A stretch of 64,000 nucleotides of DNA, taken from Sulfurimonas sp. (GTDB lineage Bacteria > Campylobacterota > Campylobacteria > Campylobacterales > Sulfurimonadaceae). Of this stretch, positions 51,691 through 64,000 are shown piece by piece. Numbering within the stretch: the stretch's first letter is position 1; each line of letters opens with the position of its first letter. The position numbers and the translations under genes are program-made. Location of the stretch: contig NZ_JAQVKP010000004.1 in NCBI RefSeq assembly GCF_028694605.1, positions 1 through 64,000 of the forward strand, in the 5' to 3' direction. Under the pieces are notes generated by a model. It saw only the letters and a list, made by a program, of their open reading frames with translations. It was not told the origin of the DNA and searched no databases.

Positions 51691-53013
51691 TTATATTTTA
51701 GTATCCAGCCAAACTCTCTTTTTATAGATAGCCATATAGACGACTCCCTTGATAAGCGTCTCAACATTCATAATAATAAAAATCGCCTCGATAGGATAGC
51801 CTAGTTTGTAGGCGATAAAAGAGGGTATGACGCGAAAAATCCAGAGCGAAAAAACGCTGATTTTAAGTGTTGTTTTGGTTGCTCCCGCACCTCTTAGAGC
51901 ACCTGAGTAAACAAACATGATAGCAAGAGGTATTTGCGCCAAACCTACAAAGATAAGATAGTATGATGCCACGGCTATGGTCTGAGTGTCTTGCGTGAAA
52001 AAGCCTACCAAAAACTCCGGAAAAAGGATGAGCACCACCCCAACACTTCCCATAAACATGTACGCTATGCGTCCGCTGATAATGCCCATGGCATAGGCTC
52101 TCTCTTTCTCTCTCGCACCCAAACTCTGCCCCACAAGCGCAGTTGCGGCGATAGCAAAACCAAACCCCGGCATAAAAGCGATTCCCTCTATGCGAAGCCC
52201 TACCTGATAGCCCGCCAACTCCGCCGTTCCGTAAGCGGCGATAATGGCTACAAAAAACAAAAACGAGATACTCGATATACCCCGCTCCAGCGCCGCACTC
52301 CATCCCACATGCCACACCCTGATAATATCTTTGATGCGAAAAAGTGGAAGTATGCCAAGATGTGCGTGTGGTTTTTTTAGTAGCAAAAAGTAAGCAGCGA
52401 CATTGAAACCATAAGCAAAAACAGTCGCATACGCCGCCCCCTCTACCCCCATCGCCTCAAAACCAAAATGCCCAAAGATAAAAACATAGTTCAAAAAAGC
52501 GTTGAGTGCGGAGGAGAGAAGTTTGATATAGAGCGAGTTTTTTGTATCGCCAGCCGCTGAGAGGGCGTTATAAAAAAGCGCATCGATAAACATAAAAACC
52601 ATCCCAAGAGAGATAATCTTAAAGTAGAGCGCACCCTGCTCCACCACTTCTGCTTCTGCTCCCATCATGGCGTAAATATACTCACTTCCAAAGTAACCGC
52701 CAAAACTTACAAAGAGAGAAAAAACCGCTGCAACAATGGCAAGAGCGTAGAGAAGTGCGGAGGCTCTCCTTTTTCTCCTCTGCCCGATAAAACGAGAGAT
52801 AAGTGCATTGCCGCCCACAACATAGAGCGTCATAAGCACATTGACAATCATCATAAACTGCATGCTCATCCCAACTGCCGCAAGAGCCGAGACGCTTACC
52901 ATCCCTACCATAAGCATATCAATGAGGATTTGCAAGATATCGACTAGATGTTTGAGTGCGGCAGGAATGGCGATGGAAAATACTTTACGGGTATCTTGAG
53001 AGACTAAAAAAAT
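51691..53013 (-). CDS. MATE-family multidrug exporter, probable ATT start
   Basis: Na+/H+-coupled exporter, about 12 membrane segments. The open frame has no ATG, GTG or TTG early enough: the first normal start is TTG at 52935, which would delete the first half of membrane segment 1 and has no ribosome-binding site. The frame stays open upstream, encoding a normal MATE N-terminus (VFSIAIPAALKHLVDI) back to ATT at 53013-53011, and AGAGGT lies 6 bases before that ATT. Translation from ATT gives 440 aa, the normal length. The gene overlaps the previous stop by 10 bases, so it is coupled. Confidence 0.75.
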   Translation of the reverse strand: MFLVSQDTRKVFSIAIPAALKHLVDILQILIDMLMVGMVSVSALAAVGMSMQFMMIVNVLMTLYVVGGNALISRFIGQRRKRRASALLYALAIVAAVFSLFVSFGGYFGSEYIYAMMGAEAEVVEQGALYFKIISLGMVFMFIDALFYNALSAAGDTKNSLYIKLLSSALNAFLNYVFIFGHFGFEAMGVEGAAYATVFAYGFNVAAYFLLLKKPHAHLGILPLFRIKDIIRVWHVGWSAALERGISSISFLFFVAIIAAYGTAELAGYQVGLRIEGIAFMPGFGFAIAATALVGQSLGAREKERAYAMGIISGRIAYMFMGSVGVVLILFPEFLVGFFTQDTQTIAVASYYLIFVGLAQIPLAIMFVYSGALRGAGATKTTLKISVFSLWIFRVIPSFIAYKLGYPIEAIFIIMNVETLIKGVVYMAIYKKRVWLDTKI

Positions 53014-53279
53014 TGCGCCACCTCTTGCATAGCTTCAAAAAGCGCCTCTTTTGTCTCAAAAAGAAGCTCTTTTTTTTCTCGCACCTTCTCACCTGATGGG
53101 GTAAAGTCAAAAACCAAAACGTAGGAAACTATCTTGACTTTGTCGGTGTTCATATCTGCCCATTCAAGGCTCATCTCGGCAACTTCTCCATGTGCGTCCA
53201 CAACAGCCGCGGGGTAGAGACGTGTCACTTTTGATAAGTCAAGCACGCCGATTTTTGAGTGATAAAACATCTCTTTCAT
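53004..53279 (-). CDS. conserved hypothetical protein (91 aa)
   Basis: A 91-aa soluble protein with alternating strands (VKIVSYVLVFDF) and a C-terminal helix ending in EAMQEVAQFF. No known domain. The ATG overlaps the stop of the EAL sensor gene (ATGA), and its end overlaps the MATE start, so it is translated in a chain of three genes. Confidence 0.72.
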   Translation of the reverse strand: MKEMFYHSKIGVLDLSKVTRLYPAAVVDAHGEVAEMSLEWADMNTDKVKIVSYVLVFDFTPSGEKVREKKELLFETKEALFEAMQEVAQFF

Positions 53280-55456
53280 GCTTGCTCTTGTTCACCTATG
53301 AGGTCGGTCGGCTTCCCAAAATAGTACCCTTGAAACTCATCTACGCCATACTCTTTAAGGAGTTCAAAAATCTCTTCATTTTCTACATACTCCGCAACAG
53401 TAGTGATGTGCAGCTCACGGGCAAAACTGATGATACTCTTAACCAAAATTTTCGAATCTTCATCACTTAAGATATTGCAAATAAGAGAGCCGTCAATCTT
53501 AAGATAGTCAGGTTTTATCTCCAAGATATGCGCATAGTTTGCATAGCCGCTTCCAAAATCATCTATGGCAATCAAAACACCCATCGCTCTTAGTTTTTTC
53601 ACTACTTGAAGCAGCCTCTCAAAGTTTTCGACACCCTCTTGTTCTGTTATCTCCACAACTACTCTTGATGGCGAATCAAGCTTTTCTATCCCATCCATCA
53701 ATGTTTTTATAACAGATGGGTTGAAAAAATCATTTGGCAGAAAATTTAAAGAGATACGTTCCTCTCTGTTTTGAAAAAACTTCAAAGAGAGACGCAAAAT
53801 CTCTTTTGTCATCTTGATATAAAGCTCGCTGTTCATGGCGATACTCAAAAATTCGTTTGGATACATAATCCTCTTTTTACCGCCGTCATACGCAACGATA
53901 CGCATCAATGCTTCATACTTAACCGCTTTTCCGTTATGATCTGTGATGGGTTGAAAAAACGGGATTACGTTTTTGTGTTCAAGGGCATGTTTAATGCTTC
54001 TTTTTACTTTGACAACAGTTTGAGAATGCTCTTTTGTATCTACTTTTTGCGAGTAAATCATAAAAGAAAGGGACTCTTTTCTTGCCTTTTTAAGTGCCAT
54101 TTGCGCATACTCAAGCGAATGTTCATTGTCAAATGCCACTCCTGAGTACATCTCTACACTAATAATCTCTTCAGCCTCTTTGAGTGCGATTTTAAGTGCA
54201 TTTACCCTTTGATGCAGCTCTTTGAGAGTTTTATAGCAGGTCTCCTCATCAAAAAAATCCTCCTCTTTTAAAAGCACAAACTCATCCGATGAGATTCTAT
54301 AAGCACTAAAGCCCTTCTCTTTTGCAAAATCACTAAAAAGTGCCGCAACTCGGATAAGAACTTCATTGCCGACATCCACACTGTAAAGTTCGTTGATAAG
54401 GCTAAACTCTTTGATATTGCTAACTATAAGCACTTTGCCGTGTTGGGTAAAAAGTGCGTCATTTAGTGCGTATCTGTTAAACAGTCCTGTCAGATGGTCT
54501 ATATAAATCTGTTTTGAGTAATAATTTAAGATTTTTGTAAAACTCTGATGCATTAAAATAACCAAAATAAGCATAGCAGAGGCAATAAGAAAAAAGAAAC
54601 GCTGTAAAAATTCAGTATCTTTTTTAAGGATATCGCTTATATCAAATCCGACAACAAGGTAACCCATCGTCTGTAAAAGATGATTTTGCAAAGCTATGGA
54701 CATATCAACCTTATAACTCATCTTTTTGTCTGTCTGTTTTTGCAAAAAGTAGTTTTTTAGACTTGTGTTGCCACGAACAAGTTGAAGCTTATCGTCTATT
54801 TTCACTACTGCTTTTTGGTCAAGCAAAATCTCAAGCTGCGCTCTCTCAAGCGCAACACCTACATCAATTTTGAAAACCGCACCAAGCTCCTCCAAAAAAG
54901 CCCTCGGATTGATACCAAGCTCTACATTGCCAACATAAACATCTTTGTAAAAGATGGGTTTTGTAAGACGGTAGGTTATATCAAGGTTGCCCACTTCAAA
55001 GCCGCTAAATGGACGTCTTAACATATTTGTGTCAACTATTAAAGTACGCTTTTTGTTTAGTTCATCCCCAAAATAGTCCGGCTGATGCGCACGCAAAAGA
55101 GTGATGTTTTCTGTGGAACGAAAAGTAAGAATATCTGCATCTTTTTGCACATCTCTAAGCTTTTTATAGTAAGGCTCAACGATTCGCTTCAGTGCCTCAT
55201 AATCCCTGCGAGCCATCGCCTCTGCCAACCCCTCCGCCGCAACGATATTTGAGAGTTTAAAACTCAAATCGGCTTCACTTTTTTGGATATTTTCTAAAAA
55301 TAGATTCTTTGTACCCCAAGCTATTCTTTGAAACTCCTGTTCAACCGATTTTTCAAGCTGACGCTCCAAGAGTATGTAGATACCCACAAGCGAGAGCAAA
55401 AAGAGAGATAGCGTCAAAATAAGAGTATTGCGTTTGATTTTACTTGGAAGATTCAT
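53276..55456 (-). CDS. membrane sensor GGDEF-EAL phosphodiesterase
   Basis: A 726-aa inner-membrane protein: N-terminal span (about 10-30), a periplasmic sensor region of about 240 residues, a second span (about 285-305), a GGDEF domain (about 320-470) and an EAL domain (about 480-720). The cyclase site reads SSDEF, so it is probably inactive. The EAL part is complete: YEALMR, LNFLPNDF, EITE, IDDFGSGYANY, KIDGSLI, AEYVE, QGYYFG. It is likely an active c-di-GMP phosphodiesterase responding to a periplasmic signal. First gene of a coupled run with the 91-aa and MATE genes. Confidence 0.88.
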   Translation of the reverse strand: MNLPSKIKRNTLILTLSLFLLSLVGIYILLERQLEKSVEQEFQRIAWGTKNLFLENIQKSEADLSFKLSNIVAAEGLAEAMARRDYEALKRIVEPYYKKLRDVQKDADILTFRSTENITLLRAHQPDYFGDELNKKRTLIVDTNMLRRPFSGFEVGNLDITYRLTKPIFYKDVYVGNVELGINPRAFLEELGAVFKIDVGVALERAQLEILLDQKAVVKIDDKLQLVRGNTSLKNYFLQKQTDKKMSYKVDMSIALQNHLLQTMGYLVVGFDISDILKKDTEFLQRFFFLIASAMLILVILMHQSFTKILNYYSKQIYIDHLTGLFNRYALNDALFTQHGKVLIVSNIKEFSLINELYSVDVGNEVLIRVAALFSDFAKEKGFSAYRISSDEFVLLKEEDFFDEETCYKTLKELHQRVNALKIALKEAEEIISVEMYSGVAFDNEHSLEYAQMALKKARKESLSFMIYSQKVDTKEHSQTVVKVKRSIKHALEHKNVIPFFQPITDHNGKAVKYEALMRIVAYDGGKKRIMYPNEFLSIAMNSELYIKMTKEILRLSLKFFQNREERISLNFLPNDFFNPSVIKTLMDGIEKLDSPSRVVVEITEQEGVENFERLLQVVKKLRAMGVLIAIDDFGSGYANYAHILEIKPDYLKIDGSLICNILSDEDSKILVKSIISFARELHITTVAEYVENEEIFELLKEYGVDEFQGYYFGKPTDLIGEQEQA

Positions 55457-63351: not shown

Positions 63352-64000
63352 TTATTTTAAATTCTGCGTTTTCAAAATCCAACGCACATAAAACGCACCC
63401 ACTAAAAACCCTGCTCCCATGAGCCATGTTATGAACTCCAGCGAGTAACCGTCCGTTGCCAAAAATCCTATCATAAAAGATGTAAATGTCGCCATAGACA
63501 AAAAGAGCATGTCATTGTATGCCACTATGCGTCCGTAGTATTTTTTATCTATATTTTTTTGCAAAAGCGTGTAAGTGTGCGACCAGAGCGTTGTTGTAAA
63601 AAAGCCCACTATCACACTTGCAAAGAGCGAGAGGTAAAAATGCTCCATCATATACGCCCAGAGCCAAATCGCAAAGCCTTGTGCGACAAAAACATAAACC
63701 AGCCTCTTGTCGTTGACAAATCTGCCCATGATGATAGGTCCGACCACAAGCCCCAAAGCTCTAAAAGCATGCAAAAGCCCAAGCGCAAGCGATGTTGCGA
63801 TAATGGAAGCGTAGTATTTCTCCACCATCAAAGCCACCAGCGCATCAAATGCAGTCAAACCTACAAATGCATGAAGTGCCATCAGATGAAGCGCATGCGG
63901 ATTTTTTTTGAGATACCTAAATGTATCGCCCATCATCCGCAACAAACTCTCCTTGCTTTTTATAAAATCCGTCTCAAGCCTTAGCGTATAAAGAAGCCAA
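63352..64000 (-). CDS. MFS transporter, C-terminal part (cut by window edge)
   Basis: The frame stays open to the last base of the window, so the start lies beyond it; a TTG at 63945 is not the true start. The visible 215 residues form about five to six membrane segments, preceded by a basic cytosolic loop (SKESLLRMMGDTFRYLKKN), the C-terminal half of a major facilitator superfamily transporter. GRFVNDKR in the loop between spans fits MFS signature loops. Substrate unknown. Confidence 0.82.
   Translation of the reverse strand, partial: WLLYTLRLETDFIKSKESLLRMMGDTFRYLKKNPHALHLMALHAFVGLTAFDALVALMVEKYYASIIATSLALGLLHAFRALGLVVGPIIMGRFVNDKRLVYVFVAQGFAIWLWAYMMEHFYLSLFASVIVGFFTTTLWSHTYTLLQKNIDKKYYGRIVAYNDMLFLSMATFTSFMIGFLATDGYSLEFITWLMGAGFLVGAFYVRWILKTQNLK

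Follow-up and report, generated by a model that had tools for sequence, protein, structure and literature searches.

Where does translation of an exporter gene begin when its reading frame offers no conventional start codon before the first membrane helix is well under way? This question is raised by a MATE-family gene on the minus strand of a Sulfurimonas window, by which we mean the whole 64,000-nucleotide stretch of DNA analysed. ATG, GTG and TTG are all absent from this frame until the TTG at 52935, codon 27 counted from an ATT further upstream, and the first ATG (residue 33) lies six codons past that TTG. The initial annotation had proposed that the gene starts at the ATT, and the comparison described below strongly supports this assignment. 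The features concerned are listed here.

51691..53013, minus strand: MATE-family exporter gene, 440 codons from ATT to stop, assigned by Pfam, TIGR00797 and a structure model.
53011..53013, minus strand: very probable ATT start codon of the MATE gene (62 ATT and 13 ATA at the same place in 90 loci; its A kept at a synonymous site of the 91-aa gene).
53020..53026, minus strand: Shine-Dalgarno (SD) sequence AAGAGGT, within the 91-aa gene (Glu codon GAG in 79/79 pairs with the overlap; no synonymous change counted on the tree).
53035..53037, minus strand: in-frame TGA closing the MATE frame upstream, read from the sequence.
52933..52935, minus strand: TTG, first canonical start in the MATE frame, at residue 27 in helix 1, rejected as the start from the sequence, the relatives and the model.
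53004..53279, minus strand: 91-aa gene of an uncharacterised family, with a 10-nt overlap with the MATE start, present in 111 of 135 genus genomes.

From the TGA (53037-53035), the MATE frame reads AGC TAT GCA AGA GGT GGC GCA before reaching ATT (53013-53011), and continues as TTT TTA GTC TCT CAA GAT ACC CGT AAA GTA TTT TCC, with AGAGGT at 53025-53020 exactly 6 nt ahead of the ATT. In this region the 91-aa gene, which is read in the other phase, comes to its end (...CAA TTT TTT TAG); it shares 10 nt with the frame that begins at the ATT, giving a gene pair in which the downstream start overlaps or abuts the upstream stop. The overlap is about 16 nt in most loci, and 85 overlapping pairs were found. 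The 91-aa protein is predicted with a confident fold (pLDDT 92) and its family has the invariant motifs RLY, AEMSLEW and LVFD; searches of Pfam, NCBIfam and the PDB returned no match, by sequence or by fold. Its own upstream neighbour, a gene for a dCache_3-GGDEF-EAL protein (53276-55456, minus strand), overlaps it by 4 nt (ATGA). A late first canonical start, at codon 15 or beyond, occurs in 7 of the 54 long frames of the window, the MATE frame being the one of these that was compared with relatives. Elsewhere in the window, a 192-codon open frame (63406-63981, plus strand) has its first canonical start 51 codons in and an SD-supported ATG at codon 78.

The product of the frame matches Pfam MatE (1.3e-52) and TIGR00797 (6.1e-81, above the curated cut-off), and its AlphaFold model (pLDDT 89.8) has the transporter Aq_128 as best PDB match (6z70, TM 0.94), such that both a domain match over the cut-off and the fold itself place it in the MATE family. 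In the predicted model, helix 1 comprises residues 6-37, with the ATT taken as residue 1. A start at the TTG or at the first ATG would hence delete most of this helix. The sequence and the model together bear out the statement of the initial annotation that no normal start precedes the TTG, which itself lacks a ribosome-binding site and falls inside helix 1.

We inspected the same place in relatives, combining 30 same-genus loci and 80 named loci into 90 distinct loci. GGT-N6-ATT/ATA stands in frame with MATE in 75 of these 90 (62 ATT, 13 ATA), most of the loci being metagenome assemblies and all being related to one another rather than independent. The ATT with AGAGGT 6 nt ahead and an in-frame TGA upstream, as initially annotated, is thus an arrangement shared well beyond the window. 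Most of the related loci have no ATG, GTG or TTG before helix 1. The distance from ATT to the body of the MATE protein varies (11, 12 or 13 codons, always in frame), while the spacing between GGT and ATT is constant. On the tree, a quick one with some weak forks, ATT is spread over the whole Sulfurimonas clade, deep branches included, and ATA occurs mainly in one group; the outgroups in the family carry ATG (L215-L219) or TTG (L220). The near-cognate codon is therefore conserved across species at proper spacing behind an SD, in frames that mostly hold no ATG, GTG or TTG able to give the full-length protein.

Replacement of ATT by a canonical start in orthologues, a possibility raised in the initial annotation, is seen as ATG in seven loci (L033, L064, L098, L029, L107, L108 and L089) and as TTG in one (L111, Sulfuricurvum), beside the 75 that keep the near-cognate arrangement. 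In L089, the SD is broken and the ATT has gone with it; an ATG lies five codons down. The ATT is shifted one codon downstream in L050 and L014, stands behind GAGGA in L069, is followed two codons later by GTG in L076, and is present in L057 in a frame broken by an N run. L102 (L102:1430-1480) has ATT without an SD, another upstream gene and no canonical start, and L068 (L068:140-175), also with another upstream gene, has no canonical start and seemingly only an ATC, behind GGAG. Together with L076, where either the ATT or the GTG could be the start, and L089, these two loci conform poorly to the general arrangement. About 10 loci contain an ATG, GTG or TTG five codons beyond the ATT, as expected by chance for a Leu/Ile/Val/Met codon, and this codon is not preceded by its own SD.

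Because the SD and the start lie within the 91-aa gene, the constraint on them can be read from its synonymous sites. GAG encodes the Glu that contributes to the SD in every one of 79 overlapping pairs, against a GAG share of 55.5% elsewhere in the same genes. The codon that supplies the A of the start in overlapping pairs is CAA wherever it encodes Gln (58/58) and AAA wherever it encodes Lys (23/23), with shares elsewhere of 59% and 81%, respectively. In the 18 non-overlapping 91-aa genes (20 minus L054 and L057, which do overlap MATE), the same Glu is encoded by GAG in 7 and by GAA in 6, and the trinucleotide at the start position varies. On the MATE tree, parsimony counts 0 changes at the SD Glu column in 66 loci, against 11-18 at those other Glu columns that hold 50 loci or more, and no change at either of the Gln columns belonging to the SD and the start.

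The MATE frame itself also appears to be translated this far upstream. In 77 loci, pN/pS is 0.265 over the eight codons that follow the 91-aa stop; it is 0.13 over the 21 codons preceding the first ATG and 0.257 in the body of the gene, while the shifted frames (77 loci) give values near or above 1 and many stops. Purifying selection thus acts on MATE-frame codons past the 91-aa stop, and translation must therefore begin upstream of them.

Four other accounts of this region were weighed against the ATT start. The relation of the two frames, a point that goes beyond the initial annotation, would also fit a programmed -1 frameshift or slippage on CAA TTT TTT TAG, fusing the 91-aa and MATE proteins with the internal AAGAGGT as stimulator: the phase is right, A TTT TTT is present in the window and in many relatives, and an SD-like element lies upstream. 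Many species that share the arrangement nevertheless lack the T-run (CAA TTA TTT, CAA TTA TTG, GAC TTA TTT, CAA CTA TTT, AAA TAC TTA and AAA TTA TAC), so that no conserved slippery sequence in the 0 frame was found among the loci compared. Moreover, four loci without the upstream 91-aa gene keep SD-N6-ATT, loci with changed contexts have gained ATG and no fusion, and L056 carries a MATE-frame TAA directly before the ATT. On this evidence we rejected frameshifting as highly improbable. The seven consecutive T at the junction might instead point to an assembly or sequencing error, which could conceal an ATG or GTG at 53013 or the loss of a T whose restoration would join both frames. Yet the arrangement recurs in about 80 independent assemblies, including the complete genomes G012 and G032, and in species without the homopolymer. 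This excludes an error, a concern of the initial annotation, leaving it a vanishingly small probability.

Two further accounts place the start downstream. TTG 52935 and the ATG six codons on are the first canonical starts, and a pipeline limited to such codons would presumably pick one of them. Neither has an SD, and the TTG is unconserved: in most of the 30 same-genus loci, its place is taken by CTT, CTC, TTA or similar codons, contrary to the normal downstream start that the initial annotation had considered as a refutation, and the first canonical codon is usually an ATG in helix 1. Aq_128, the closest solved relative, aligns with the MATE product from residue 9, and coding selection reaches upstream of both codons; together with the loss of most of helix 1, this makes either start extremely improbable. 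Another near-cognate codon, such as the ATC/ATT of a conserved L-I-S five codons on, where an Ile or Val codon is common, could also be the true start. This codon would lie about 21 nt from the SD, and the window and others show GTC, CTC or TTA there. The constraint falls instead on the A of the upstream ATT, and it is the spacing from SD to ATT that is constant, while the length of the linker varies. We consider such a start very improbable.

Taken together, we conclude that the Sulfurimonas MATE exporter gene is very likely translated from AUU (AUA in one species group), directed by an SD and placed within the overlap with the 91-aa gene. As judged from comparison of sequences, the position and identity of the start, as well as selection on both the SD and the A of AUU, appear to be established. 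AAGAGGU would pair with 16S rRNA to place AUU in the P site, where initiator tRNA would read it as Met. Since translation of the 91-aa gene stops about 8-16 nt into the MATE frame, re-initiation by terminating ribosomes is probable there, and ribosomes finishing the 91-aa gene are probably the main supply for this weak start. Output of MATE per mRNA is probably well below that from an AUG, judging by other bacteria. The overlap makes a coupling of the exporter to the 91-aa gene plausible, and an IF3-type limitation of the MATE start is plausible by analogy. A special RNA structure at the 91-aa/MATE junction was also considered and dropped, as folding of this junction gave a z-score of -0.54.

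The overlap also offers a reason why the start has not simply become ATG, an aspect beyond the initial annotation. A single base change would convert ATT or ATA to ATG, but in the 91-aa gene it would replace Phe, Leu or Tyr by Cys or introduce a stop codon, and it is thereby blocked. The case thus illustrates a gene locked into a weak start by an overlap. Loci in which this context has changed indicate how far the explanation extends. The 91-aa gene has been lost in L044, L052, L066 and L069, all of which keep the SD-N6-ATT block; L052 and L066 have a common, different upstream gene, and in L052, L066 and L044 the block remains although the sequence immediately before it has diverged. Since these loci retain the MATE start without the 91-aa gene, they at least do not depend on coupling. 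At least three lineages without the overlap still have ATT, one base from ATG, and the overlap is therefore not the whole explanation. That AUU has outlasted the 91-aa gene in these lineages suggests that the weak start is tolerated or favoured, and not only trapped. In L033, L064, L098 and L029, the upstream DNA has been replaced, and an ATG lies no more than two codons away from where the ATT would be. Separately, two genomes (G002 and G015; L167 and L194) have about 830 bp between the 91-aa and MATE genes, and in both the MATE gene carries an ATG.

These losses bear on whether AUU was itself selected, so that IF3 activity or re-initiation would fix the exporter at a low level relative to the 91-aa protein. 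The retention of AUU after loss of the overlap favours this reading, as do analogues with measured effects (PMC5472188, PMC13009471). Against it, the four loci that adopted ATG after upstream replacement evidently tolerate it, and infC itself starts at TTG in this group. We regard such selection as a serious possibility, if one with somewhat less than an even chance. Its broader form, in which AUU/AUA has served over the whole history of Sulfurimonas as a selected control element, setting a low ratio of exporter to 91-aa protein via re-initiation or IF3 discrimination and being kept after decay of the partner, is offered tentatively and appears rather doubtful. If true, it would present a transporter held low by a near-cognate start codon at the scale of a genus.

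Because the non-canonical start is kept across dozens of species, automatic annotation should truncate this protein, and pipelines allowing only ATG, GTG and TTG would miss the first half of helix 1 of the transporter genus-wide. The locus also constitutes a natural experiment, with dozens of species bearing the overlap, several losses by different routes, and outgroups with ATG or TTG. Synonymous-site conservation of an SD and an ATT inside the preceding gene could furthermore provide a search route for more such genes. To our knowledge, few bacterial genes have been documented to carry conserved AUU/AUA starts, and a literature search on Sulfurimonas and start codons found no report of this case.

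The best-known parallel is infC, which the initial annotation had invoked. In the window genome and in nearly all readable relatives (L143, L228-L249), infC starts at TTG, as GAGGT-N6-TTG overlapping the thrS stop. An autoregulation of infC through AUU, AUC or AUA was thus not found in the same organism, and the parallel is an analogy; of the initial interpretation, the ATT start is strongly supported, and the link to infC holds by analogy only. The AUU starts of E. coli infC and pcnB have been reported to limit expression (Sacerdot et al. 1996; Binns and Masters 2002, as cited in PMC2268962 and PMC13009471). These genes share the AUU start with the MATE gene and belong to a different class from a transporter, and the autoregulation of E. 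coli infC is without counterpart here.

A closer likeness is found in S. aureus, where conserved AUU/AUA starts with an SD are described in excerpts of one report for cvfC1 (AUU) and for ccpN and infC (AUA), and where AUU/AUA starts yielded about 10% of AUG (PMC13009471). According to the same excerpts, the S. aureus genes have an extended SD motif, in contrast to the shorter AAGAGGT of Sulfurimonas MATE; ccpN encodes a repressor rather than a transporter, and gene overlap is not described in them (PMC13009471). For sigR of Streptomyces, initiation at GTC is repressed by IF3; the codon is GTC in 32 of 34 species and GTT in 2 (PMC5472188). sigR resembles the present case in its non-canonical start, strong SD, genus-wide conservation and position next to a translationally coupled partner gene (PMC5472188). 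Its non-canonical GTC is, however, on the upstream gene of the pair, whereas the AUU/AUA of MATE is on the downstream gene, inside the overlap, and control by IF3 has been demonstrated for sigR, whereas for the Sulfurimonas MATE start it is plausible by analogy. IF3 also matters in re-initiation (PMC2268962). For the protein, the closest solved structure is the Aquifex aeolicus MATE transporter Aq_128 (PDB 6z70, 6fv6; 32% identity), a comparison that bears on the protein and not on the start codon. The principle of a conserved near-cognate start is hence known from infC, pcnB, sigR, ccpN and cvfC1; what is new here is the class of gene, the placement of the start within an overlap and the diversity of natural variants.
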